Part shown: piece by piece, positions 6,390-61,574 of the stretch | Layout of the letters: each line of letters opens with the position of its first letter | How positions within the stretch are numbered: the first letter of the stretch is position 1 | Assembly: GCF_002127655.1 (NCBI RefSeq) | Contig: NZ_NEHB01000009.1 | Span: forward strand, 62,001 to 126,000 | Origin: Janthinobacterium sp. GW456P | GTDB lineage: Bacteria; Pseudomonadota; Gammaproteobacteria; Burkholderiales; Burkholderiaceae_D | DNA length: 64,000 bases | Direction: 5' to 3' | The notes under the pieces: model-generated | Told to the model about the DNA's origin: nothing | What the model saw: only the letters and a program-made list of their open reading frames with translations | Database searches by the model: none | Position numbers and translations under genes: made by a program

Positions 6390-7106
6390 TCAGGTCAGCC
6401 GCGCCTGCAAGTCCAGCGCATTGAACAGGGCGGCGCCGGCCGCCGTGTTATCGAAGATGCACCAGCTGTGCGCCTGCGCCGATGCGCGCCATTCGGCGGC
6501 CAGCGCCGCCAGGTAATCGGCCGGATAGTCGGAGTAATATATTTTCGGGCTGCCGTGCAGGCGCAGATAGGCCGCGCTCGTGGTCGGCACATGGGGGCCG
6601 CGCTGGCCGGCGGGCGGATCGGCGCGCACGCGCGTGATGCGCTGTGCCATCAGCAGTTCGGTGGCATCCGCCGCGAACCAGCTGGGGTGGCGCGCTTCGC
6701 AAGCGAGCATGCCGTTGAAGTGCTGGCGCAGCGCATGAAAAAATGCGGCGGCCGCATCCGCTTCGAAACGCAGGCTGGGCGGCAGCTGCACCAGCACGCA
6801 GCCCAGTTTATTCCCCAGCTGCATCACCTCTCCCGCAAAGCGGTCCAGTTCGGCCGCACAGTCGCGCAAGCGCCGTTCGTGCGTGATGCTGCGTGGTAAT
6901 TTCACGCTGAAGCGGAAATGCTCGGGTACGCTGGCGGCCCAGCGCGCGTAGGTTGACGGCTGGTGCGGACGGTAGAAGGAGCTGTTGATTTCCACGCAGT
7001 CCAGTACTTGGGCATAGCGCTGCAGGTGGCTGCCATCGAGGGGGAAGTGGCTGGCGGCGACGCTGGAGATGCTCCAGCCGGCGGTGCCGATGTGAACAGT
7101 GTGCAT
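6390..7106 (-). CDS. DUF72 (YecE-like) protein
   Basis: The 238-residue protein begins with the family hallmark HIGTAGWS and continues with VEINSSFYRPH, FRFSVKLPRSITHERRL, a GCVLVQLPPSLRF strand and a C-terminal YLRLHG plus CIFDNTAAGAA. These are typical of DUF72 TIM-barrel-like proteins. Their biochemical role is unknown. It is not coupled to its neighbours: its 3' end faces the GntR promoter region and LpxH lies upstream on the same strand, 69 bases away. Confidence 0.85.
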   Translation of the reverse strand: MHTVHIGTAGWSISSVAASHFPLDGSHLQRYAQVLDCVEINSSFYRPHQPSTYARWAASVPEHFRFSVKLPRSITHERRLRDCAAELDRFAGEVMQLGNKLGCVLVQLPPSLRFEADAAAAFFHALRQHFNGMLACEARHPSWFAADATELLMAQRITRVRADPPAGQRGPHVPTTSAAYLRLHGSPKIYYSDYPADYLAALAAEWRASAQAHSWCIFDNTAAGAALFNALDLQARLT

Positions 7107-7175
7107 GGCGCCATTACAGCAAGGCCAGGCGGGCGCGGCTATCGGACAAACACCCGTGCGGCCGTCGGCGCAGGC

Positions 7176-7928
7176 CTAGTCGACGATCTCGCCGTTCAGG
7201 TCATGGCGCGTGATGTTGCCGCGCGCATCGATGGCGATCCAGCCGCCGCGCGGCGGTTCCACGTCGCATTCCCAGTCGGGCAGGACATAGCGCAAGGTGT
7301 TGTCGACCTGGTGCAGGGCGGGGCGGTGCGTATGGCCGTGGATCATGACGGTGCTCGCGTGTTCGGCAAATACTTGCGCGACAGCATCGGGCGTGACATC
7401 CATGATGTCCATGGATTTTTCGCCATTGTGCTCGCGGCTGCTTTGGCGCAAGCCGTCGATGATGGCCTTGCGCTGCGCCAGGGGCATGGACAGGAACTGT
7501 TTTTGCCAGGCCGGCTGGCGCACCATGGCGCGAAACTCCATGTAGCTGGCGTCTTTCGTGCATTCGGCGTCGCCATGCAGCAGGACGATGCGCCGGCCGG
7601 CAATCGTGGCCACGTGCGGTTCGCTGAGCAGGGTGGCGCCGGCGGCGGCGGCAAAGCCGGAGCCGACAAGAAAGTCGCGGTTGCCGGCGATCCAATAAAC
7701 ATGCACGCCGGCATCGCTGACGGCGCGGATGGCGGCCGTCATGCGCGCATTGAACGGGTCTTCCAGGTCATCGTCGCCGGCCCAGTATTCGAACAGGTCG
7801 CCTAATAGATACAGCGCTTGCGCATACTGCGCATGGTGTTCCAGGAAAGAAAGAAACGCCGCGCTGGTGCGCGGGTGCGAGCTCTGCAGATGCAGGTCGG
7901 AAATAAAGAGTGCGGCAGGCATTGTCAT
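7176..7928 (-). CDS. lpxH: UDP-2,3-diacylglucosamine pyrophosphatase
   Basis: LpxH hydrolyses UDP-2,3-diacylglucosamine to lipid X and UMP in lipid A synthesis, at the inner membrane surface. The 250-residue protein shows the calcineurin-like metallophosphoesterase motifs in order: FISDLHL, GDLFEYWAGDD, GNRDFL, LLHGD and HGHTHRP, which supply the dinuclear metal ligands. Length is typical. GGGAG lies upstream of the ATG at 7928. A large hairpin separates it from ppiB. Confidence 0.9.
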   Translation of the reverse strand: MTMPAALFISDLHLQSSHPRTSAAFLSFLEHHAQYAQALYLLGDLFEYWAGDDDLEDPFNARMTAAIRAVSDAGVHVYWIAGNRDFLVGSGFAAAAGATLLSEPHVATIAGRRIVLLHGDAECTKDASYMEFRAMVRQPAWQKQFLSMPLAQRKAIIDGLRQSSREHNGEKSMDIMDVTPDAVAQVFAEHASTVMIHGHTHRPALHQVDNTLRYVLPDWECDVEPPRGGWIAIDARGNITRHDLNGEIVD

Positions 7929-8018
7929 CGTTCAACGCTCCCGTCGGTTTGGGATTGCTTGCTTGCGGGACGCATGATTGCTGCCTGATTTGTCTGGTGT
8001 GTTGAATGCATTGTTGAA

Positions 8019-8139
8019 GGTGGCTCTGAAAACCGTAGCGAGCAAGCCCAATGCCGGGTCGAGTAGCGGAGCCGTACCTTGAGTACGGCGAGCAACGGAA
8101 ACCCGGCAGTGGGCTGCGCAGTAGGTTTGCAGGGCTACC
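8019..8139. repeat. 121-bp imperfect inverted repeat (long hairpin)
   Basis: The outer arms GGTGGCTCTGAAAACC (8019-8034) and GGTTTGCAGGGCTACC (8124-8139) pair with three mismatches. A second block, around AGCCCAATGCCGGGT, pairs with ACCCGGCAGTGGGCT. The tip is GCCGTAC-CTTGA-GTACGGC (8071-8089). The element ends exactly where the ppiB stop codon begins. It could act as a terminator or mRNA stabiliser for ppiB, or be a copy of a dispersed palindromic repeat; one copy cannot decide. Confidence 0.7.
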
Positions 8140-8631
8140 TTAGGCGGCTTCGACTTTTTCGATGATGACATCGGTCACTGGCACGTCGGCGAACATGCCG
8201 GCGCGCGAGGTTTTCACGGCGCGGATGGCGTCGACGACTTCCTTGCCGTCGGTAACTTTACCGAACACGGCGTAACCCCAGCCGTCCTGGCCTGGATAGT
8301 CGAGGAAGCTGTTGTTCTTGATGTTGATGAAGAACTGGGCCGATGCCGAATGCGGATCCGACGTGCGGGCCATGGCCAGGGTGTAGGTATCGTTTTTCAG
8401 GCCGTTCTTGGCTTCGTTTTCCACGGTGGTGTCGGCAGGTTTTTGTTTCATGCCTGGCTCGAAACCGCCGCCCTGGATCATGAAACCGTCGATGACGCGG
8501 TGGAAGATCGTGTTGTTATAGTGGCCGGCGTTCATGTAGGCCAGGAAGTTGGCAACCGTTTTCGGCGCTTTTTCGGCGTCCAGTTCAGCGGTGATCTTGC
8601 CCAGATTGGTGGTGATGATGACGGAGGTCAT
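8140..8631 (-). CDS. ppiB: cytoplasmic peptidyl-prolyl cis-trans isomerase B
   Basis: The 163-residue cyclophilin catalyses proline isomerisation during protein folding. Motifs include the [14 protein letters not shown] signature, ARTSDPHSASAQFFIN and GYAVFGKVTDG, all normal for bacterial PpiB. There is no signal peptide, so it is cytoplasmic. AAGGATC lies just upstream of the ATG at 8631. The secreted cyclophilin gene lies immediately upstream on the same strand and shares most of the core sequence, so the two are probably a duplicated pair. Confidence 0.9.
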   Translation of the reverse strand: MTSVIITTNLGKITAELDAEKAPKTVANFLAYMNAGHYNNTIFHRVIDGFMIQGGGFEPGMKQKPADTTVENEAKNGLKNDTYTLAMARTSDPHSASAQFFINIKNNSFLDYPGQDGWGYAVFGKVTDGKEVVDAIRAVKTSRAGMFADVPVTDVIIEKVEAA

Positions 8632-8704
8632 GATGATCCTTAATAAATTGGATGAATAATTGATTCAGTGGCGCCAGGCAGGCCGGCGGGGCAAAAACGC
8701 TATT

Positions 8705-9334
8705 TTACAGTTTTGCGGGCGCGGACTTGAGTAAAGTCGCCGATTCGATCACCACGGGGGTGACCGGCACGTTCTGGTGCGGCCCCTTGTCTGCCACGGG
8801 CACGGCCTTGATCTTGTCGACCACGTCCATGCCTTTGATGACTTTGCCGAACACCGTGTAGCCGAAACCGTCGCGGCCAGGGTAGTCGAGCGCGCCGTTA
8901 TCGTTCACGTTGATAAAGAATTGCGCGGTGGCCGAATGCGGATCGCCCGTGCGCGCCATGGCGATGCTGTAGGTGACGTTTTGCAAGCCGTTCTGCGCTT
9001 CATTCTTGATCGGCGCCTTGGTGGCTTTCTGCTTCATGTTCTTGTCGAAGCCGCCGCCCTGTATCATGAAGCCGTCGATGACGCGGTGAAACACCGTGCC
9101 CTTGTAATAACCGCTTTTGACATACTGCAAGAAATTGGCCACGCTTTGCGGCGCTTTTTCCTGATTCAGTTCCAGCACGATTTCGCCCATGCTGGTTTTC
9201 AGGGCCACATGGGGCGTGGGGTCGAGGGCGGTCGCCGGAGCGGCCGCCACGACGGCGCTGCCCAGGGTCAGACCGGCAAACAGGGTGCAAAAACGGGCCA
9301 GGAAAGACAGGCGTTTCGATTTGATTTCTTGCAT
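8705..9334 (-). CDS. ppiA: periplasmic peptidyl-prolyl cis-trans isomerase (cyclophilin)
   Basis: The 209-residue protein has a signal peptide (positively charged MQEIKSKR, then a hydrophobic run ending near VVAAAPA) followed by a cyclophilin domain with [14 protein letters not shown] and [16 protein letters not shown]. It should assist folding in the periplasm. It lies 73 bases upstream of ppiB on the same strand and may be co-transcribed with it. Compared with PpiB it carries an extra leader of about 40 residues. Confidence 0.85.
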
Positions 9335-9612
9335 GAAGGCGTCCTTGATCGTTATTTTTCTCTAAACTTGCTTTAATTGTAAAGAACTGAAAATTCGGTT
9401 GAACATCGTAAAAACCTGATTCATATCGGGCCAGTATGGTTTTTATCAATGTTATACTTGACCGCTAACGTCCCAATTCTAACAAACAAGAACAACAATA
9501 TAGCGGGTCGACAGTTTTCGGCGCACACGGCAGTTCAGTGGCGCGGCACCCCCGGTGTCCGCGCCTGTCTGTCGTTTTGCCAGGCTGGCGGCCGCTTCAC
9601 TTGCAAAGTACG

Positions 9613-11010
9613 ATGAGCAATCTAAAGATTTACAACACCCTGGCTCGCGAGAAGCAGGTATTCGTCCCGATGGAAGCGGGCAAGGTACGCATGTACGTCT
9701 GCGGCATGACCATCTACGATTATTGCCATATCGGCCATGCGCGCATGATGATGGCTTTCGACGTCATCTACCGCTGGCTGAAGGCGTCCGGTTTCGACGT
9801 CACCTATGTGCGCAACATTACGGACATCGACGACAAGATCATCCGCCGCGCCGTGGAAAACGGCGAGACGATTTCCCAGCTGACGACGCGTTTCACCCGC
9901 TACATGGATGAAGACACGGCCGCGCTGGGCATCCTGACGCCCGACCACACGCCGCGCGCCACCGAATACGTGCCGCAGATGCTGCGCCTGATCGAGCAGC
10001 TGGAAGCGAAGGACCTGGCCTATCAAGGCGCCGATGGCGACGTCAATTACGCCGTGCGCAACTTCCCCCACTACGGCAAGCTGTCGGGCAAGTCGCTCGA
10101 CGACCTGCGCGCGGGCGAGCGCGTCGACGTGAACACGGGCAAGCGCGATCCGCTCGACTTCGTGCTGTGGAAGTCGTCGAAGGAGTCCGAGCCGGAAGAA
10201 GTCAAATGGGATTCGAAGTGGGGCAAGGGCCGTCCGGGCTGGCATATCGAGTGCTCGGCCATGTCCTGCGCCTTGCTTGGCGAACAATTCGACATCCATG
10301 GCGGCGGCGCGGACTTGCAATTCCCGCACCACGAAAACGAGATCGCCCAATCCGAAGGCGCGTTCGGCCATACCAGCGTTAACTATTGGATACATAACGG
10401 CTTCGTGCGCCTGGACAATGAAAAAATGTCCAAGTCGCTCGGCAATTTCTTCACCATCCGCGAAGTGCTGCAAAAGTTCGATGCCGAAGTGATCCGCTTC
10501 TTCATCCTGCGCGCGCACTACCGCAGCCCGCTGAACTATTCGGACGTGCACCTCGATGATGCGCGTTTGTCCTTGACGCGTTTGTACACGGCGCTGGCCG
10601 ACGTGGCGGTGGAAGAGGGCGCCATCGACTGGAGCGAAGCCCATGCCGTGCGCGTGCGCGAAGCGATGGACGACGATTTCAATACGCCGCTGGCCGTGGC
10701 CGCCCTGTTCGACCTGGCGACGGAAGTCAACAAGAGCAAGTCGCCCACCCTGGCGCGTCAATTGAAGGGCCTGGCGGGCGTATTCGGCTTGCTCGAACGC
10801 ACGCCGCAGCAATTCCTGCAAGCGACCGTCGGCGCTGGCGCCGATAGCCGGGACGAGGCGGCCGGCATTGAAGCGGCCATCGCGGCGCGCAGCGCGGCGA
10901 AAAAGGCGCGCGACTTTGCCCAGTCCGACAAGATCCGCGCCGACTTGCTGGCGGCGGGCATCATTCTTGAAGACAAGCCTGACGGCTCGACCAACTGGCG
11001 CCGCGCATGA
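9613..11010 (+). CDS. cysS: cysteinyl-tRNA synthetase
   Basis: CysS charges tRNA-Cys with cysteine. The 465-residue protein has the class I HIGH motif in [10 protein letters not shown], zinc-ligand context GWHIECSAM and [10 protein letters not shown], and the KMSKS loop in [11 protein letters not shown]. The frame extends to 9538, but the family N-terminus ([14 protein letters not shown]) starts at the ATG at 9613. It begins a run of housekeeping genes and overlaps the next gene by four bases (ATGA). Confidence 0.95.
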
Positions 11011-53771: not shown

Positions 53772-55352
53772 ATGCCGTCTTTTAATCTGTTCCAGCGCCT
53801 GTCCCAGGCCCCCACCAAGCCCAAGGCCGCGCCCGTTGCGCGGCAATTCGACGTGGCAGACCTGTACCAGGGCCCCATCGCGCTGGGCAGCGACGGCGAG
53901 ACGCAGGCGCGGCCTTTCGATGAAAAGCTGCGCCAGGCATATTTCTGGATCGTCAACCACGCCATCATCAGCCCCCATTACGACATCGAATACAACGATG
54001 GTCCGTCGCAGACGTATGCCGTGGGCGACAGCCGGCGCACCCTGAACTTGCCGTCGGCGCAAAGCTATTCCAGTTTTATTCTGCTGCCCCTGCTGACGTT
54101 TGCCACGCGCCGCAAATGCCTGTTCGTCGGCGGGCCGGGGCGGGGCAAGACGGCCAGCGCGCTGCTGATGGGCGTGCTGGCCGGCTCCACCGTCAAGGAA
54201 GTCAAGCGCGCGATGCAGCACGGCCACCCGCAGATGACGGTGGCCGATTTGCTGGGCAATCCGCTGCCAGCCGACCTGGTCAATGCGCAAAGCATGGACG
54301 ATATCCGCATCGCCTGGCGCGCCTGGCTGGGCATGCGCGTCAAAATCGTCGATGAATACAACCGCATCCCCACGCGCACGCAAAGCGCGCTGCTCACCGT
54401 CATGGGCGACAATTACGCGGAAGTGCTGAACCATATCTATGAATGCCCGGAAGCGGCCTGGTATCTGACGGCCAATGACGACCAGGGCGGTGGCACCTAT
54501 CAGGTGATCGAGGCGCTGCGCGACCGCGTCGACGTGACGGTGCAGGCGCTGGCCTTCAATCCGCGCTTTTTAAATGAACTGCTGCTGCGCGTGGAGGAAA
54601 ACGTGCGCCCCGAAGAGCTGGTGCCGCCCGATATCATCTTCACGGAAGCGGAGGTGGACCAGATCGGCGCGGCGATCCGCCAGGTGGCCGTGCCCGAAGC
54701 CGTGCGGCGCCGCCTGGAATTTTTCGCCAGCCAGTTCGAACTGTTCGAGACGGCCGGCGGCCAGTTCGAATACATGACCAAGGATACGGCCCGCCTGGCC
54801 GGCGCCGACCGGGGCGCCGCGCAGGCGGCCGACAATGGGCGCGACCGTTTGAAGGATCTCGGTTGCCAGACACTGAACGGCATCTCCGTGCGTACCCTGA
54901 TGGCGCTGCTGATCTACGCCAAGGCCATGGCCTATTTCCGCGGCAATGGCGAGGTGGCGCTGGAAGACTTGCGCCAGGTGCTGCCGTTTGTGCTGCATAA
55001 CAAGCTGCAGCCGGACCCGGACGCGCCGTTTTTCGCGCTGCCGGAAAACGCCGCCTACCGCAGCGACAGATTGGGCTGGCTGCGCCGCCTGTTCGACTTG
55101 TCCAACGATGAATTCAACCGCCTCGACCTGGACCGCGACGATCCTGTCGGCGCGCTGTCGGCCGAATTCGACCTGGGCCTCGACGGCGTCAGCGAACGCG
55201 ACACCCTGGCGCGCCTGAACCGCATCGAAAAGCTGATCGGCGAACGCACGAAAGGGAGAAAACTGTACGGTCCCCTGTACGACGACCTGCTGAAATTGAA
55301 ATATCTGCATCAGCGCTATACCAACTACCGCAGCTGGCTGCGTTCGCAATGA
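53772..55352 (+). CDS. MoxR-family AAA+ ATPase, first gene of a seven-gene operon
   Basis: The 526-residue ATPase has Walker A GGPGRGKT at residues 120-127, MoxR-type Walker B IVDEYNRIPTRTQSALL with Asp194-Glu195, sensor 1 YLTAND near 235 and an arginine-containing ALRDRVD. An N-terminal region of about 100 residues and a C-terminal region from about 300 are unusual for a plain MoxR. MoxR ATPases act with vWA proteins to remodel or insert cofactors into client proteins. The fourth gene of this operon encodes a vWA protein. Overlap with the next gene is four bases. Confidence 0.85.
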   Translation: MPSFNLFQRLSQAPTKPKAAPVARQFDVADLYQGPIALGSDGETQARPFDEKLRQAYFWIVNHAIISPHYDIEYNDGPSQTYAVGDSRRTLNLPSAQSYSSFILLPLLTFATRRKCLFVGGPGRGKTASALLMGVLAGSTVKEVKRAMQHGHPQMTVADLLGNPLPADLVNAQSMDDIRIAWRAWLGMRVKIVDEYNRIPTRTQSALLTVMGDNYAEVLNHIYECPEAAWYLTANDDQGGGTYQVIEALRDRVDVTVQALAFNPRFLNELLLRVEENVRPEELVPPDIIFTEAEVDQIGAAIRQVAVPEAVRRRLEFFASQFELFETAGGQFEYMTKDTARLAGADRGAAQAADNGRDRLKDLGCQTLNGISVRTLMALLIYAKAMAYFRGNGEVALEDLRQVLPFVLHNKLQPDPDAPFFALPENAAYRSDRLGWLRRLFDLSNDEFNRLDLDRDDPVGALSAEFDLGLDGVSERDTLARLNRIEKLIGERTKGRKLYGPLYDDLLKLKYLHQRYTNYRSWLRSQ

Positions 55353-55822
55353 GTATCGATCGTTGTCAAGGCTTCCTGGACGCGCTGGCCATGCTCAATG
55401 GCGAAGCGAGCGACCTGTGTGCCAGCTACGAGTTATCACGCCTGCCCGATGCGCCCGATCTGCTCACGGCGCTGGGCTTGCGCGTGGAAGACCATGCCTT
55501 GAACGCCATCGCCCCCGCGCGCCACTTGCCGCCCCCCTTATGGCATATCAAGCTGGCGCCGTGCGGGCGCGCGCAGCTGGAGCAGGTGTGCCAGCGCTGG
55601 TTTTTCTCGTCGCGGCACATGCAGGCGGCGCCCCCTGGGCGCTTCCGCGCGCAGCTGGTGGCCGGCTTCCTGGAATCGCTCGATGCGGCGCTTGGTGATT
55701 GCTCCCTGCATGCCGTGACGATGGTGCCGCCCGCCGGTTTCTGGTACGCGATCCACTGGGACGAGATCGCGTTCGAAGTGGGCGATGAGCGCTATCTGCT
55801 GCACTTTTCGCATAGCGACTGA
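55349..55822 (+). CDS. unrecognised protein of the MoxR-vWA operon (157 aa)
   Basis: The frame starts at an ATG overlapping the ATPase stop (ATGA) and ends nine bases before the next start. It is a mixed alpha/beta protein: DLLTALGLRVEDHALNAI near residues 35-55, PPPLWHIKLAP near 65, WFFSSRHMQ near 85, and a C-terminal GFWYAIHWDEIAFEVGDERYLLHFSH. No membrane segment or signal. I do not recognise a family. The tight coupling and codon use say it is real. Confidence 0.7.
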   Translation: MSIDRCQGFLDALAMLNGEASDLCASYELSRLPDAPDLLTALGLRVEDHALNAIAPARHLPPPLWHIKLAPCGRAQLEQVCQRWFFSSRHMQAAPPGRFRAQLVAGFLESLDAALGDCSLHAVTMVPPAGFWYAIHWDEIAFEVGDERYLLHFSHSD

Positions 55823-55831
55823 GGGGCTGCG

Positions 55832-56803
55832 ATGATCTCTCCTGCCTTTGCGGCGATCCTTGCCGGCGGCCGCGCCCAGTTCAATGCGCGCGCAGCGGAA
55901 GCGCGCCGGCGCTTTCCCTCGCTCGACATGGCTGCCTTCGGCGCCTTTTTGCACGACGGCGTCGATCCGCTGATAGTCGCCGTGTCTTCCGCCGCGCCCG
56001 AGCGCGCGGGTGGCGCGACCCTGGCCGCCTACGACATGGCTTTGGAACTGGTGGGCCATGGGCTGGCCGGTCCGGCCGCGAAAAACCCGTTCCTCAATAC
56101 CGTGTGGCGCGAACTGGCGCCGCAGTTTGCGCCGCTGCTGGCGACTGCCCCGGTCGATGTGCTGGGCATGCTGAGCAACGCCGCCATCCACATCGCCTCC
56201 GTGGCGGGCGCGCGTCCCGCGCAGTGGCAGCGCGAGCTGAACGCCCTGGCGGCGCAGATCGCCACGCTGGCGCAGCTGCGCGCCGTGGGCCAGGTGCTGG
56301 CCTGGCGCGCGGGCGTCGCGCATTTCCGCCAGGGTGCGCTGGCCGCCGCCGATACCTTGCCGCCCGCCTTGGCGCTGGCCGCCTTCGATGAACCCGGTGC
56401 GCAGTGGCCGCAGGTGCATGCGCAGCTACAGGGCAATCCGTGGCGCGGCAATGCCGAAGGCCGCGAGTTCGGCAGCTTCAGCGGCCTTGGTGGCGACTTC
56501 GGCACGCCGCCGCAGGTGCGCGCTTCTGCGGACGGCTTTGTCGTGCGCAGCGCCGAACGCCATTACCTGCTGGTGGCCGACGCCTTTGGCGCCGTGCTGC
56601 ACAGCGCCACGGCGCAGGAGTTCGAGCAGGCGCACACCGGCACGCCGGCGTCCGTCCGCCTCGATGGGACGACCGTGCACGTCGGCGCGCGCCGCATCGA
56701 ACTCGATGTGCCGGCCGGCGACATCGCCATCGCCGCCAATGCGCATACGGTCGCCGTCACGTCGCCGTGGACGCACGCGATCCGCCTGCTGCCCCTCGCA
56801 TGA
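55832..56803 (+). CDS. unrecognised protein of the MoxR-vWA operon (323 aa)
   Basis: The N-terminal two-thirds is helical and alanine-rich (RAQFNARAAEARRRFPSLDMAAFGAFLHDGVDPLIV onward). The last third is beta-rich, with repeated short strands (GGDFGTPPQVRASADGFVVRSAERHYLLVADAFGAVLHS, then PASVRLDGTTVHVGARRIEL), which might be a small propeller-like or jelly-roll domain. The four-base overlap with the vWA gene (ATGA at 56800) indicates strict coupling. No catalytic motif is evident. Possible roles, inferred only, are substrate recognition or adaptor for the ATPase. Confidence 0.65.
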   Translation: MISPAFAAILAGGRAQFNARAAEARRRFPSLDMAAFGAFLHDGVDPLIVAVSSAAPERAGGATLAAYDMALELVGHGLAGPAAKNPFLNTVWRELAPQFAPLLATAPVDVLGMLSNAAIHIASVAGARPAQWQRELNALAAQIATLAQLRAVGQVLAWRAGVAHFRQGALAAADTLPPALALAAFDEPGAQWPQVHAQLQGNPWRGNAEGREFGSFSGLGGDFGTPPQVRASADGFVVRSAERHYLLVADAFGAVLHSATAQEFEQAHTGTPASVRLDGTTVHVGARRIELDVPAGDIAIAANAHTVAVTSPWTHAIRLLPLA

Positions 56804-58575
56804 AGAACGATGCCGACACCGCGCTGATCGAGGCCTGGCGCGCCGCCTGGCCCGAGGCCCTGGCTGTGTGGAGCAAATTTACGCGCCTGCGCGACCCCAG
56901 CCTGTGCGCCAGCCGCGTCGAGGCCAGCAAGCAGGGCCTGTCCGGCAGCTTCGCCATGATCCGTTTGCTGGACCAGAGCGTGGTGGTGGACTTGCCGCTG
57001 GTGACGGAACTGGGCCTGGACGACTATGCGCTGGAAATCCTCGCCCATGAAATCGGCCACCACATCCTCGCGCCAGGCAGCGCCGGCGACCAGTTCCGCC
57101 TGCTGGCGCGCATGCGCCGCGCCTTGCCCACTCTGGAGCAGCATGCGCCCATGGTGGCCAACCTGTACACGGACCTGTTCATCAACGACCGTCTGCAGCG
57201 CCAGGCGAATTTGCGCATGGCCGACATCTACCGCAAGCTGCAGCAGGGGCGCACGGCGCAAGCTGACGCCAAGGACAAGGCCAGCGGCGGCGTGTGGACG
57301 CTGTACATGCGCATCTATGAAAACCTGTGGCAGTTGGAGAAGGGCGAACTTGGGGGCGGCCATGCCGACGAGCGCCTGGACACGGATGCCTGGCTGGGCG
57401 CGCGCCTGATCCGCGTGTATGCGAACGACTGGATGCTGGCGGCGGGGCGTTTCGCCACCTTGCTGCTGCCCTATCTGGTTGACGATACGGACGCTTTGAG
57501 CCCCAGCCGTTATCTGCAGGATACGCGCGACGCGGCCCGTGGCTGCCAGACGTATGGCGCGCAGCAGATCGAGGATGACGAGATGGACGGGGCCATCCAC
57601 CCGGTGCACGACAAGCGCATTTCCGGCCTCGATGGCGAGGAGCCGCAGGGCGAGGCGCCGGCCAGGCAGGGAGGCGGCCAGCTGCGCGAACCGTTCGAGC
57701 TGGGCGATATATTAAAAGCCTCGGGCATCGATCTGAGCGACCATGAAATCGCCATCCGCTATTACCGCGAGCGGGCCTTGCCGCATCTGGTGGCGTTTCC
57801 CAGCCGTCCCGCGCCCGAGTCGCAGGAGCCGCAGATGGAGGGGCTGGAAGCGTGGGAAACCGGCGATCCGCTCGAGGAAATCGACTGGCTGCAGTCCGTG
57901 ATGCAGTCGCCGCGCCCCGTGCCGGGCGTGACCACCGTGCGCCGCGTGTATGGCCGCGAACCGGCGCGCGCCATCGACGCCGTGCCCGTCGACCTCGACA
58001 TGTACGTGGACAGTTCCGGCTCCATGCCGAACCCGCAGGCGCACACCTCGTTCCTGACCCTGGCCGGCGCCGTCATCGCCCTGTCCGCCCTGCGCGCCGG
58101 CGCGAAAGTGCAGGTGACCCTGTGGAGCGGCAAGAACGAGATGATGCAGACGCCCGGCTTCGTGCGCGATGAAGACCTGATTCTGGGCGTGCTGACGGAG
58201 TTTTTTGGCGGCGGCACCTGTTTCCCCATCCACTGTCTGCGCAAGACCTATGCGGCCAAGCGCGAACGGCCCGCGCACATCCTGATGATTTCCGACGATG
58301 GCATCACCACCATGTTCGACCAGGATGAACTGGGCAACAGCGGCTGGGATATTTCGGCGAAAGCGCTGGCGCAAGGCGGCGCCGGCGGCACCATGGCGCT
58401 GAACCTGGCGCGCGACTGGGATGGCGCGGCCAGCCACACCTGGCTGCAGCAATGCTATGACGATTTAAAACGCGCGCGCCGCGAGCAGGGCTGGGATATC
58501 CACGCCGTCGAGCGCTACGAGGACTTGCTGGACTTTGCGCGGGCGTTCAGCCGGCGCCACTATAGACAACCATGA
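56800..58575 (+). CDS. zincin-motif metallopeptidase-like protein fused to a vWA domain
   Basis: The 591-residue protein has HEIGHH at residues 83-88, a zinc-metallopeptidase (HExxH) signature, followed by NLYTDLFINDRLQ near 121-133, which could supply the third ligand and structural acidic residues. About residues 240-390 are charged linker. The vWA domain starts near 395 with the MIDAS motif DSSGS at 404-408 and continues to the C-terminus (GAVIALSALRAGAKVQVTLW, FGGGTCFPIHCL, HILMISDDGITTMF). It is coupled to the gene before it by a four-base overlap. Family members annotated as vWA-like exist, but the zincin fusion is uncommon. Confidence 0.75.
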   Translation: MKNDADTALIEAWRAAWPEALAVWSKFTRLRDPSLCASRVEASKQGLSGSFAMIRLLDQSVVVDLPLVTELGLDDYALEILAHEIGHHILAPGSAGDQFRLLARMRRALPTLEQHAPMVANLYTDLFINDRLQRQANLRMADIYRKLQQGRTAQADAKDKASGGVWTLYMRIYENLWQLEKGELGGGHADERLDTDAWLGARLIRVYANDWMLAAGRFATLLLPYLVDDTDALSPSRYLQDTRDAARGCQTYGAQQIEDDEMDGAIHPVHDKRISGLDGEEPQGEAPARQGGGQLREPFELGDILKASGIDLSDHEIAIRYYRERALPHLVAFPSRPAPESQEPQMEGLEAWETGDPLEEIDWLQSVMQSPRPVPGVTTVRRVYGREPARAIDAVPVDLDMYVDSSGSMPNPQAHTSFLTLAGAVIALSALRAGAKVQVTLWSGKNEMMQTPGFVRDEDLILGVLTEFFGGGTCFPIHCLRKTYAAKRERPAHILMISDDGITTMFDQDELGNSGWDISAKALAQGGAGGTMALNLARDWDGAASHTWLQQCYDDLKRARREQGWDIHAVERYEDLLDFARAFSRRHYRQP

Positions 58576-58576
58576 C

Positions 58577-59170
58577 ATGCAGAATCCCGGACCCCACCTC
58601 GAAATCCTGACCCACCGCCTGGCCGACACGCCCGCCGAATTCCTTGCCGAGCCCCGTATCGCCGGCGTTGCCAATGCGCAGGCTGTGGCGGTTGCCGCGC
58701 TGGTCAACGACATTTTGCTGCTGCATGGCGCGCGCGCGCCGGCCGCGTCACTGCAGGGGTTTATCGGCGCGCAGGTGAAGGCCGACCGCAACCGGCTGGC
58801 GCTGGCCATGATCGTGTGCTGGCTGCTGGCCGACGAGTGGTTCATCGCTCAGCGGTTGCCGCAGCATGATCTGCTGCAGGTGCTGGGCGAGGCGGCGCGC
58901 GAACTGGCCGCCGCCACTCCCGCCCACCAGTTCACGCAAGACCCGGAGCGGCGTGAAGAGCTGGCGCGCATCGTGCTGGCACGCCTGGGTTTCAGGCCGC
59001 GCGATGAAAGCGTGGCGCAGGCGACGGACAGATTGTCCGCCATCAGCGGTACGGAGCGGCGCCGCCTGCTCGAAGCGAGCCGCCTGGCCGAGCAGCGCGC
59101 GCGCGAAATCCGCGAGGCGCTGGCGAAGAAGGCGGCCGAGGAATCGGCCGACAAGTGGTCGCGCGAATGA
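58577..59170 (+). CDS. unrecognised helical protein of the MoxR-vWA operon (197 aa)
   Basis: The ATG at 58577 lies one base after the vWA stop; an ATG at 58572 is out of frame. The product is almost wholly helical: HLEILTHRLADTPAEFLAEPRI near the start, a hydrophobic run (LALAMIVCWLLADEWFI) near residues 75-90, and a highly charged C-terminal coiled coil (RRRLLEASRLAEQRAREIREALAKKAAEESADKW). I do not recognise the family. It overlaps the AMP-forming enzyme gene by four bases (ATGA at 59167). Confidence 0.65.
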   Translation: MQNPGPHLEILTHRLADTPAEFLAEPRIAGVANAQAVAVAALVNDILLLHGARAPAASLQGFIGAQVKADRNRLALAMIVCWLLADEWFIAQRLPQHDLLQVLGEAARELAAATPAHQFTQDPERREELARIVLARLGFRPRDESVAQATDRLSAISGTERRRLLEASRLAEQRAREIREALAKKAAEESADKWSRE

Positions 59171-60534
59171 GCGTGGACGTCAATCTGCCGGGCGGCGCCT
59201 GGGAATCGGACCGCGACTACTGCCCCACCCTGACGCCGGCGGGTGCGCATATGCTGGACAAGCTGCGCGGCCATCCCTGCGCGCCCGTGTATCGCAACCG
59301 CAGCGGCAACAAGCTGCTGGCTGGGGAAGTGGAAGCCTTGCGCATCTACGAGCAGGAAGTCATGGACGCCACGATAGGCTGGAGCGCCGCCGCGCCGCCG
59401 CCGTGGCTGGCGGATTTTCTCAGGACGGTCTACGCCACGGTGCCGCATTACCGCGCCTGCGGCTCGCCGCCCGCGCGCCTTCTGGACGTGGCGCCCATCA
59501 GCCGCGCCGAGCTGGCGCACGACATCGCCGCCTTCGTGCCCGACGATGCTGACCTGGCGCGCATGATCAATTTCCAGACGACGGGCACCACGGGCCACCC
59601 GCTGCTGATCGCCTCGCATCCGCTGGTGGCGGGGCGCTACCTGGCTTTCCACAAGCGCGCGCTGCGCCGCTTCGGCGTCACCCTGCGCCATGGCGCGGGC
59701 CAGGTGGGCGTGATGCTGCTGGGGCACCAGCGCCGCTGCTTCACTTATGTATCCGTCACGCCGACGATGCACGAATCGGGTCTGGCGAAGATCAACCTGC
59801 ATACGGACGACTGGCGCCACCCGGACGACCGCGCGCGCTACCTCGATGCCATGGCGCCCGAGCTGATCGCGGGCGACCCCATCTCGTTTGCCGAGTTGCT
59901 GACCTTGCCCATGACGCACCAGCCGGCCGCGCTGCTGTCCGTCTCGATGATGCTGTTGCCCGGCATGCGTGCGCGCCTGGAAGCGCGTTTCGGCTGTCCC
60001 GTGCTCGATATCTATTCGCTCAATGAAGTGGGACCGGTCGCCGTCTACGACGAGCGGGCGGGCGGCCACGTGCTGCTGCAGCACCGGCTGTACGTGGAAA
60101 TCCTCGATGCGGATGGCCGTCCCGTGCCCGATGGCGCGCGTGGCGAAATCACGGTGACGGGCGGTTTCAATTTTTGCCTGCCCCTGGTGCGCTACCGCAC
60201 GGGCGACTATGCCTCGCTGGCGCATGGCCCGCACGGTCCCGTGCTGGTGGGCCTGGCGGGGCGCAGCCCCTTGCGCTACAGGACGCTCAACGGCGAGTGG
60301 ATCAATAATATCGACATCACGCACGCCTTGAAACCGCTGGCCATCGCCCTGTTTGGCGTGCATCAGCATGGCGACGGCGCCGTCGCGCTGCGTCTGGCGC
60401 CGAACGCCATGCCGCAGGCTGATCGTGCGCGCGCCTTGCTCGCACCTTTTTTCGGCGCCATCACGGTCGAGACCTTGCTGGCGGAAGACAAGATCATTCA
60501 ATACACTTCGGATTTGCGGGAAGCGGCAGCATGA
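59167..60534 (+). CDS. PaaK/F390-synthetase-like AMP-forming enzyme
   Basis: This 455-residue adenylate-forming protein has an FQTTGTTGHPLL motif (phosphate-loop type), SLNEVGPV near the active site and a YRTGDYASL motif with GRSPLRYRT in the lower region. It resembles the PaaK/CapK/F390-synthetase branch, in which the acid or a cofactor is activated as an adenylate. The substrate is unknown. Its start overlaps the preceding stop (ATGA), and its stop overlaps the NadR-like gene (ATGA at 60531). Confidence 0.75.
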   Translation: MSVDVNLPGGAWESDRDYCPTLTPAGAHMLDKLRGHPCAPVYRNRSGNKLLAGEVEALRIYEQEVMDATIGWSAAAPPPWLADFLRTVYATVPHYRACGSPPARLLDVAPISRAELAHDIAAFVPDDADLARMINFQTTGTTGHPLLIASHPLVAGRYLAFHKRALRRFGVTLRHGAGQVGVMLLGHQRRCFTYVSVTPTMHESGLAKINLHTDDWRHPDDRARYLDAMAPELIAGDPISFAELLTLPMTHQPAALLSVSMMLLPGMRARLEARFGCPVLDIYSLNEVGPVAVYDERAGGHVLLQHRLYVEILDADGRPVPDGARGEITVTGGFNFCLPLVRYRTGDYASLAHGPHGPVLVGLAGRSPLRYRTLNGEWINNIDITHALKPLAIALFGVHQHGDGAVALRLAPNAMPQADRARALLAPFFGAITVETLLAEDKIIQYTSDLREAAA

Positions 60535-61574
60535 AGCTTTATAAACGCGGCCTTGTGGTCGGCAAATTTTGCCCGCTGCACCTGGGCCATGAACTGTTGA
60601 TACAACGCGCCACGGACGGGTGCGAGGAACTGCTGGTGGTCAGCTACACGAAACCCGAATTTCCCGGCCTGGAGCCGGTGCGCCGGGAACGGTGGCTGCG
60701 CGCGCGGTTTCCGCAGGCGCACATCGTGGTGCTCGACGATGCGCGCCTGGCCGCCTTGTGCGCGGCGCGCGGCATGCCGGCGCGCGCGCTGCCGCACAAC
60801 GACGCCGATGGCGACGACCATCGCCACTTCATGGGCTGGCTGTGCTGGACGGTGCTGGACTTGCCCGTCGATGCCGTGTTTAGCAGCGAAGAGTATGGCC
60901 CCGGCTTTGCGCAGGTGCTGAAACGGCATTATGCGGTTGGCGCGGTGGCGCACGTGAGCGTGGACCAGGCGAGAACTGCGGTGCCCGTATCGGGCACCCT
61001 CGTGCGGCAAGACCCGCAGGCGCACAGCGCCTTCCTGTCGCCCATCGTGCGCGCCGATTTCGTCACGCGCGTGTGCGTACTCGGGGGCGAGTCGAGCGGC
61101 AAGACGACCCTGGCGCAAGCGTTGGCGCGGCACTTCGATACGGCCTGGGTGGCCGAGTATGGCCGCGAGTTGTGGGAAAGCCAGGATGGCGTGCTGGTCT
61201 ATGACGATCTGCTGAAGATCGGCCGGGAACAGCTGCGCCGCGAAGCGGCCGCCGCCGGGCAGGCGCGGCGCTGGCTGTTCTGCGATACCTCGCCCATGAC
61301 CACGTATTTTTATTGCGTCGAGATGTTCGGCAAGGCGGAGGCGGAACTGGCGCAGCTGGCCGAGCACCGCTACGACCTGGTCGTGCTGTGCGCACCCGAT
61401 TTTCCCTTCATCCAGGACGGCACGCGCCGCGACGAGGATTTCCGCGCGCGCCAGCATGCGTGGTACCAGGCCGAACTGGCGCGTCGGGGGATCGCCTATA
61501 TCGATGTGTCTGGTTCGGTGGACGAGAGAGTCAGGCAGGTGGCGCAAGTGTTGGCGGCGCAAACGCTGTGCTGA
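60531..61574 (+). CDS. NadR-like NMN adenylyltransferase/ribosylnicotinamide kinase, lacking HTH
   Basis: The 347-residue protein has an N-terminal nucleotidyltransferase motif GKFCPLHLGHELL (GxFxPxHxGH) and a C-terminal P-loop kinase GGESSGKTT, the two enzymatic domains of NadR, which make NAD from nicotinamide riboside. There is no DNA-binding HTH at the N-terminus, so it should not be a regulator. It is the last operon gene and converges with the TetR gene, overlapping its 3' end by 44 bases. Its role here may be cofactor supply or modification of a nucleotide; this is inference. Confidence 0.82.
   Translation: MKLYKRGLVVGKFCPLHLGHELLIQRATDGCEELLVVSYTKPEFPGLEPVRRERWLRARFPQAHIVVLDDARLAALCAARGMPARALPHNDADGDDHRHFMGWLCWTVLDLPVDAVFSSEEYGPGFAQVLKRHYAVGAVAHVSVDQARTAVPVSGTLVRQDPQAHSAFLSPIVRADFVTRVCVLGGESSGKTTLAQALARHFDTAWVAEYGRELWESQDGVLVYDDLLKIGREQLRREAAAAGQARRWLFCDTSPMTTYFYCVEMFGKAEAELAQLAEHRYDLVVLCAPDFPFIQDGTRRDEDFRARQHAWYQAELARRGIAYIDVSGSVDERVRQVAQVLAAQTLC

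Follow-up and report, generated by a model that had tools for sequence, protein, structure and literature searches.

MoxR-type AAA+ ATPases that act with von Willebrand factor A (VWA) proteins are machines which drive target remodelling and metal insertion by a mechanism described as poorly understood in the parts of PMC13036017 cited here. In the same account NorQ-NorD carries out FeB insertion into cytochrome c-dependent nitric oxide reductase (cNOR), the NorQD mechanism is set out, and the metal ion-dependent adhesion sites (MIDAS) of VWA domains are said to receive a sixth ligand from a partner. In the cited passages of Kaur et al. 2020 (PMC7159879), MoxR-VWA ternary conflict systems are described in which a metallopeptidase-VWA fusion is found on rare occasions, together with a zincin-like peptide-processing system linked to some MoxR-VWA systems and a GXXXTAKS P-loop often present in the MoxR proteins of the beta-propeller and FtsH ternary systems; its main text never mentions PaaK, AMP-ligase or NadR, and it mentions radical SAM once. 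The locus described here lies in a 64,000-nucleotide stretch of Janthinobacterium sp. GW456P DNA (contig NZ_NEHB01000009.1, positions 62,001 to 126,000), referred to as the window, and is an operon of seven genes, A to G, all on the plus strand at 53772-61574 of the window (Table 1). We take the operon to be a variant of the MoxR-VWA machines and hold the mechanism proposed for it with modest confidence. Our reading, put forward tentatively and at somewhat less than an even chance, is that the core A-C-D-E-F may be a NorQ-NorD-like client-maturation machine driven by adenosine triphosphate (ATP), which includes adaptors, an adenylate-forming enzyme and a protease-like domain and is tied to the supply of nicotinamide adenine dinucleotide (NAD).

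Comparison with NorQ-NorD revealed the same placing of a MoxR ATPase gene beside a VWA gene, the MIDAS elements DxSxS-T-D in protein D and, for the predicted VWA domain of D, best Foldseek matches to NorD bound to NorQ. The operon differs in the HEIGHH domain that precedes the VWA domain of D and in the additional genes C, E and F, often with a radical SAM gene (X), a PnuC gene (Y) and G. NorD is not known to have an HEIGHH domain. None of the listed neighbour clusters, for which no norB model was run, was recognisable as a nitric oxide reductase gene. As in the ternary systems of Kaur et al. 2020, the MoxR and VWA proteins are accompanied by further partners, one of which (C) has a propeller-like part. 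The D model, however, has no propeller C-terminal to the VWA domain, in contrast to beta-propeller subsystem 4, and the P-loop of A is GGPGRGKT and not the GXXXTAKS of the beta-propeller and FtsH systems, from which the operon also differs in that its partners are conserved. The peptidase-VWA fusion of D is not new in itself because PMC7159879, in the passages cited, mentions a metallopeptidase-VWA fusion as a rare event. The gene combination of the operon, or its NAD link, was not found described in open-licence PMC papers, in line with the original prediction of a candidate undescribed system.

A search with D over a collection of 84,980 species found 216 relatives. The best 80 of the 216 were analysed as loci (18 from Janthinobacterium and 62 others labelled Pseudomonadota, Verrucomicrobiota, Acidobacteriota, Chloroflexota, Gemmatimonadota, Thermodesulfobacteriota or KSB1), so that the counts apply to the nearer relatives, and the 136 weaker ones lie outside the sample. 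Three loci were excluded from the tallies over 80 loci: L031 and L032 come from genomes already represented by L063 and L049, and L033 comes from genome G011. Genes A, B and C were scored at the 74 loci where 3.5 kb or more precedes D, and E, F, G, X and Y at a different set of 74 loci where 5 kb or more follows it, X and Y being tallied anywhere in the locus.

A-C-D-E-F-G is a conserved operon. The complete order was present at 62 of the 80 loci and the order G-A-C-D-E-F at 2, and the remaining 16 hold part of the order, some of them at contig ends. Where there was enough flank, A was found at 72/74 loci, C at 74/74, E at 72/74, F at 71/74 and G at 64/74, with X at 28/74, Y at 32/74 and B at 14/74. 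The median spacing of the A–C, C–D, D–E, E–F and F–G junctions in relatives, counted from script-chosen starts, was -4 to 2 bases; in the window there are ATGA overlaps at four junctions (A/B, C/D, E/F and F/G) and gaps of 9 bases at B/C and 1 base at D/E. Coordinates and junctions thus bear out the original prediction of seven plus-strand genes joined by ATGA overlaps or gaps of at most ten bases. Its further claim of one conserved system of seven stands for the unit and falls for the full seven, as B was present in 14/18 Janthinobacterium loci and in 0/62 others; B is outside the conserved core. It had also reasoned that relatives of the MoxR and VWA genes without the last three genes would speak against a single system, and such loci are few (E missing at 2/74, F at 3/74, G at 10/74). 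The MoxR-VWA pair on which that prediction was built, with its metallopeptidase motif and nucleotide-linked enzymes, is likewise supported.

In genome surveys, where a genome was counted as operon-bearing when D was found, D and E were present in the identical 49 of 343 genomes of the family and neither occurred alone. Among the best 80 of the 216 relatives, those closest to the D of the window are from Janthinobacterium and are at most 95% identical to it. Mirror-tree comparison gave r values of 0.74-0.88 among A, C, D, E, F and X, shared species history being uncorrected (Janthinobacterium and partial proteins left out; X on 22 loci). In the D tree two Acidobacteriota contigs (L051 and L052) fall among Burkholderiales, and these may be transfers or binning errors.

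Table 1. Genes of the operon, with positions in the window and the features on which each description is based.
Gene	Product	Position	Strand	Basis or remark
A	MoxR-clade AAA+ ATPase, 526 residues	53772-55352	+	Pfam AAA_3 and AAA_lid_2, motifs GGPGRGKT and VDEYNR
B	157-residue protein	55349-55822	+	Janthinobacterium loci only; outside core
C	323-residue adaptor-like protein	55832-56803	+	helical 1-205 and beta 205-323 in model
D	putative zincin-motif domain and predicted VWA domain, 591 residues	56800-58575	+	motifs, predicted VWA fold
E	197-residue protein	58577-59170	+	conserved C-terminal 75 residues, end DK[W/Y]xR[E/D]
F	PaaK-like adenylate-forming enzyme, 455 residues	59167-60534	+	Pfam AMP-binding, motifs, Lys442
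G	NadR-like nicotinamide mononucleotide (NMN) adenylyltransferase and ribosylnicotinamide kinase, 347 residues, without helix-turn-helix (HTH)	60531-61574	+	AAA_28, PDB profile match

Protein D carries HEIGHH at residues 83-88 and DLxIN at 125-129, and DSSGSM is also present. HE[IV]GHH and DLxIN were each found in all 80 D loci and DxSGS in 77 of them (D is split over two open reading frames in L061, L102 has a DxSxS variant, and the motif was not found in L097), and the MIDAS residues D404, S406, S408, T473 and D499 are invariant in 49 aligned sequences (protein alignments were thinned by hand to 60, 59, 49, 30 and 23 rows). The Pfam matches of the window protein were all sub-threshold, the best being VWA_2 at 16.1 against a cut-off of 27, and VWA_2 matched 31 of 49 relatives (E-value up to 0.1; best 2.6e-4). 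In the predicted model (predicted local distance difference test, pLDDT, 86.6) the VWA domain extends to the C-terminus with no domain after it. The two best Foldseek matches were to the NorD VWA domain with NorQ (9qh8, E-value 1.5e-5; 9qhe, 2.0e-4), and the best VIA-align matches were to the MIDAS domain of MDN1/Rea1 (Midasin), with Z 14.5 (207 residues, 3.9 Å) and 14.2. The C-terminal part of D is, by prediction, a VWA/MIDAS fold, and the N-terminal domain is a putative zincin-type, protease-like domain. HEIGHH, DSSGSM and the predicted fold agree with the zincin-motif/VWA fusion that had been proposed for this gene. DUF2201/PF13203 resembles D in having an HExxH domain before a VWA-like domain, and its LAHE..H and a later D..IN were aligned with D by hhalign; it differs in that no PF13203 match was obtained among 49 D members (E-value up to 0.1) and the profile score is not above the shuffled range. 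When full-length D was compared with DUF2201, the VWA parts alone aligned (probability 1.5, E-value 0.034).

The C-terminus of E is highly conserved. Among the 76 E proteins of the 80 loci the last residue is acidic in 76/76 (Glu in 74, Asp in 2) and is preceded by Arg, position -4 is Trp or Tyr in 76/76, position -5 is Lys in 75/76, and the last 75 residues are conserved as a whole. E overlaps F in 53/75 loci, and the ATGA junction does not impose the acidic end because it is kept in 22/22 loci without overlap. The MIDAS domains matched by the D VWA domain are ones solved together with ligand-giving partners. The acidic C-terminus of E is our candidate for the sixth MIDAS ligand of D, and we infer that E may dock on D. 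No Pfam match was obtained for B or E of the window at E-values up to 1, and none was consistent among 59 E relatives, where stray matches were to DUF4158 in 11 proteins (best E-value 4.5e-5) and to TY-Chap3 in 1/59 (1.7e-4).

The same operon could be read as a pathway like those for ribosomally synthesised and post-translationally modified peptides (RiPPs), in which E would be the precursor, its conserved C-terminus would be modified by F and/or X and the product would be released by the D protease. As this would have it, one operon does combine a radical SAM enzyme, an adenylate-forming enzyme and a peptidase motif with a small protein whose C-terminus is very conserved. However, in the 48 loci without X all 48 E proteins end in Glu and 47 keep DK[W/Y]xRE (L106 departs at Lys), which weakens the E tail as a substrate of X; the 75 conserved residues are unlike a short core peptide, and there was no obvious exporter among the listed neighbour clusters inspected by eye. 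We consider a RiPP-like pathway quite unlikely.

The ATPase of the proposed maturation machine, A, is of the MoxR type, with AAA_3 at 32.2 bits (cut-off 27) and AAA_lid_2 at 30.1 bits (cut-off 22.7). Its relatives have GGPGxGKT in 73/76 (L051 has GGAGRGKT; L052 and L099 are cut) and [VI]DE[YF]NR in 74/76. For C a single, chance-level Pfam match was obtained (E-value 0.29), no Pfam family matched more than 1/60 of its relatives (E-value up to 0.1), and no PDB chain was matched by sequence with profiles of C, D or E (E-value up to 1). The AlphaFold model of C (pLDDT 96.9) has a helical N-terminal part (1-205) and a beta C-terminal part (205-323). The best VIA-align rows for residues 208-323 were WD40 propellers (EED, Z 8.7, 107 residues, 3.5 Å), a Z value little above the level typical for models without a clear match, and no Foldseek match with an E-value up to 0.001 was found; the beta part is predicted to be a fold resembling part of a beta-propeller. 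B gave no match in Pfam, NCBIfam or PADLOC (E-value up to 1) or in PHROGs (E-value up to 0.01), and its conservation is mostly below that of C and D. The three proteins that had earlier gone unrecognised, B, C and E, are thus without a Pfam family of weight.

The propeller-like part of C also bears on whether the operon is a biological-conflict system, that is, a defence or stress module of the MoxR-VWA ternary type in which the D protease and F would be effectors and the pair that converts nicotinamide riboside (NR) to NAD would restore NAD during attack. Such a module would fit the patchy distribution (49/343 family genomes) and the known MoxR-VWA conflict systems, which rarely have a metallopeptidase-VWA fusion and are in some cases linked to a zincin-like peptidase (PMC7159879, passages cited above). 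Against this, the best PADLOC match was mad8 at 15.5 bits (E-value 0.0023) for G, D gave no plasmid, phage or viral-contig match and is present in 32/40 Janthinobacterium genomes, conservation and not hypervariability marks the core proteins, and D has no domain after the VWA domain. A PHROGs scan of B to E also gave nothing of weight. The possible defence or stress role raised in the original prediction therefore gained nothing of weight from PADLOC, PHROGs, plasmids, phages or viral contigs, and we keep it as a rival that is rather unlikely.

F, which would supply the adenylation step of the client-maturation machine, was matched by Pfam AMP-binding at 31.4 bits (cut-off 29.9), and the best PDB match of its profile was the phenylacetate-CoA ligase 2y4o (E-value 7.2e-13). 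The motifs YS[LM]xExGP and RYR[TS]xD were present in 75/75 relatives, and Lys442 is invariant in 30/30 aligned sequences (a lysine pattern was found in 71/75). The length given for F is counted from an ATG; an in-frame GTG is also present at 59155. F resembles the PaaK-type ligases and DVU_1553 in its adenylation core and its YSxNExGP and RYRTGD motifs and differs in scoring far below both curated cut-offs (44.3 of 646.3 bits for PaaK TIGR02155 in NCBIfam, 78.9 of 300 bits for the DVU_1553 family). G was matched by AAA_28 at 133.2 bits (cut-off 27) with a NadR-like layout, and its profile matched the NMN adenylyltransferase/NadR 9x6f in the PDB (E-value 1e-54). Its relatives have the first NMN adenylyltransferase motif, GK[FL].P.H.GH, in 66/66 and Walker A in 63/66, the Walker A lysine being missing from G of L069 and L095. 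Like NadR with PnuC, G has both NadR domains and a PnuC partner in relatives; it differs in lacking the HTH regulatory domain, in its sub-cut-off score (176.7 of 341.15 bits for NadR TIGR01526 in NCBIfam) and in being joined to a MoxR-VWA operon. The AAA_3/AAA_lid_2, AMP-binding and AAA_28 matches confirm the MoxR, PaaK/F390-like and NadR-like identities first proposed for A, F and G.

Two further partners, X and Y, which lie outside the window and so escaped the original prediction, were found in relatives. X was present at 31/80 loci, in 25 of these between D and E; Pfam Radical_SAM was over its cut-off in both members tested and SPASM below its cut-off in one. On a D tree that kept 3 of the 18 Janthinobacterium rows, X occurred in 13/15 rows of a deep multi-phylum branch and was patchy elsewhere, with at least 7 changes forced; we read this patchiness as probable repeated loss. 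Y was present at 34/80 loci, in 30 of these between F and G, and is PnuC as judged by two members (TIGR01528 at 86.2 and 77.1 bits against 42.45; PF04973 at 156.3 and 158.7 against 27.3). The window genome has two PnuC genes. The operon-type gene, at 20455-20982 of contig C2 on the minus strand, is unlinked to the operon, encodes a product 64% identical to a Y protein and scores 287 bits against the Y profile. The second PnuC, of another kind, was noted in the region 54773-55827 of contig C9 beside a kinase-only NadR relative, and these seem to form a separate nicotinamide-riboside salvage pair. Operon-type PnuC was present in 32/32 D-bearing against 1/8 D-free Janthinobacterium genomes (Fisher p 4e-7, or 8e-5 with the 5 D-free genomes at least 98% complete, relatedness being ignored in both). 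Across the family, all 49 D-bearing genomes have operon-type PnuC (G325 partial), and all 49 have a G-type match of at least 390 bits.

The following course is one that we infer, as regards the formation of a complex, proteolysis, what the E tail does, the target of adenylation, the use of NAD and the client. MoxR rings of A would bind the VWA protein D, and D would hold the client via its MIDAS metal site and pull on ATP hydrolysis, as proposed for NorQ-NorD. The zincin-type motif domain at the N-terminus of D means that a proteolytic cut may accompany remodelling. C, with its helical and propeller-like parts, and E would be dedicated adaptors, F would adenylate a carboxylate group carried by the client or by a small molecule, and X would perform a further step in many lineages. 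Many lineages have the PnuC and NadR pair, for nicotinamide-riboside import and NAD synthesis, joined to the unit, so a pyridine nucleotide is probably consumed in the process or serves as its starting material. A fuller version, which we regard as unlikely, is a multi-phylum, NAD-linked pathway of protein maturation in which NR would be imported and made into a dinucleotide, F and X would convert either this dinucleotide or a carboxylate on the client to a new cofactor or modification, and the MoxR ring of A, the zincin-VWA protein D and the adaptors C and E, with the E tail docked on the MIDAS, would cut open and load the client.

Several observations weigh against the maturation-machine reading. 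The N-terminus of D scored 19.9 against DUF2201_N in hhalign where the top of 60 shuffled controls, run with slightly different options, was 20.6, and the listed VIA-align rows for D are all on the VWA half, which filled these rows and thereby gives no evidence against a zincin fold; because of this score and these rows the zincin assignment rests on motifs. No client gene was seen next to the operon, where the conserved neighbour clusters resemble local synteny. X gave no match in the window genome (one query, no positive control). Locus L113 (Chloroflexota, 6392-10758) has only A, C and D in the stretch, possibly as a minimal or decayed form, and F was missing from two loci (E and F not found at L092, F and G not found at L106). 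Tree agreement was weakest for G (r 0.40-0.70). The divergent Y-G pairs of L069 (4677-6361) and L095 (4757-6414) lie upstream of A and not at the operon end, and a midpoint-rooted quick tree that included two outside NadRs as outgroups places their G proteins with these two (support 0.977); in BLAST, L069 G was slightly nearer to operon G proteins (172 bits) than to an outgroup (150 bits), and a second recruitment of the pair may be considered only a possibility.

The NAD pair itself is not exclusive to the operon because, among the 294 D-free genomes of the family, 64 carry operon-type PnuC, which is common in a few genera, and 12 carry a G-type match of at least 390 bits; these too weigh against the reading, and Y as an operon-exclusive gene was rejected on the PnuC count. 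One of the 12 G-type matches (G400) covers model positions 85-345 alone, and two further D-free genomes have G-type matches near 290 bits. By coordinate comparison, 10 of the 12 have their G-type gene adjacent to PnuC. Since the pair occurs in D-free genomes, adjacent in these 10, PnuC-NadR appears from gene content to be a free-standing salvage pair used by the operon. G as a member of the system, as first proposed, is accordingly upheld by its presence at 64/74 loci and qualified by its belonging to a PnuC-NadR pair that is also found without the operon.

This separability, together with the lower tree agreement of G, would suit a chance operon in which protein quality control (A, C, D and E) has come to stand with unrelated salvage and ligase genes. 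F is nevertheless kept as tightly as E (71/74 against 72/74), and its frequent overlap with E also argues against chance, so we find this improbable. A further alternative is a cofactor system, in which the PnuC-NadR dinucleotide would be converted by F and X to a modified cofactor and inserted by A, D, C and E into an enzyme encoded elsewhere. Y-G has joined the operon, perhaps on more than one occasion, an adenylation enzyme and a radical SAM enzyme share the operon, and the MoxR-VWA system NorQD inserts iron (PMC13036017, parts cited above). Against such a system, X is patchy while the rest persists, Y-G is separable, no candidate apo-enzyme was found and a separate second origin for G is not favoured by the pairwise scores; it seems to us rather doubtful.

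Other genes around the operon were inspected by eye. In the window the upstream neighbours are glutathione S-transferase-like, alpha/beta-hydrolase-like and LysR-like and the downstream ones TetR-like and short-chain dehydrogenase/reductase-like, an ordinary-looking setting. No insertion boundary was found, flank DNA giving short, weak matches in 3 of 5 D-free Janthinobacterium genomes. A pnp-like gene was seen near the operon in eight Massilia/Duganella-type loci (L055, L056, L058, L061, L062, L063, L066 and L096), six of which also have an rpsO-like gene; these neighbours suggest a stable chromosomal site in such loci. At L113 the operon genes adjoin methionine-synthase-like genes. At L092 (10858-12821), from a Verrucomicrobiaceae metagenome-assembled genome, D and a partial radical SAM match flank an ATPase-like gene, and at L106 (7828-8934) a gene between C and D encodes what we take to resemble a DUF1016-type nuclease. 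The unit can be split: at L059 (10770-16109) other genes, spanning about 5 kb, come between D and the group X, E and F.

The operon is a compact MoxR-VWA case, in which an acidic candidate ligand tail, that of E, is strictly tied to the predicted MIDAS protein D. In D a peptidase motif and a MIDAS are found in one chain, and the unit is linked to NAD synthesis. C and E, families without a consistent Pfam match, gain a context. The NAD link, if causal, would suggest that the cofactor or the way of maturing a protein is of a new kind.

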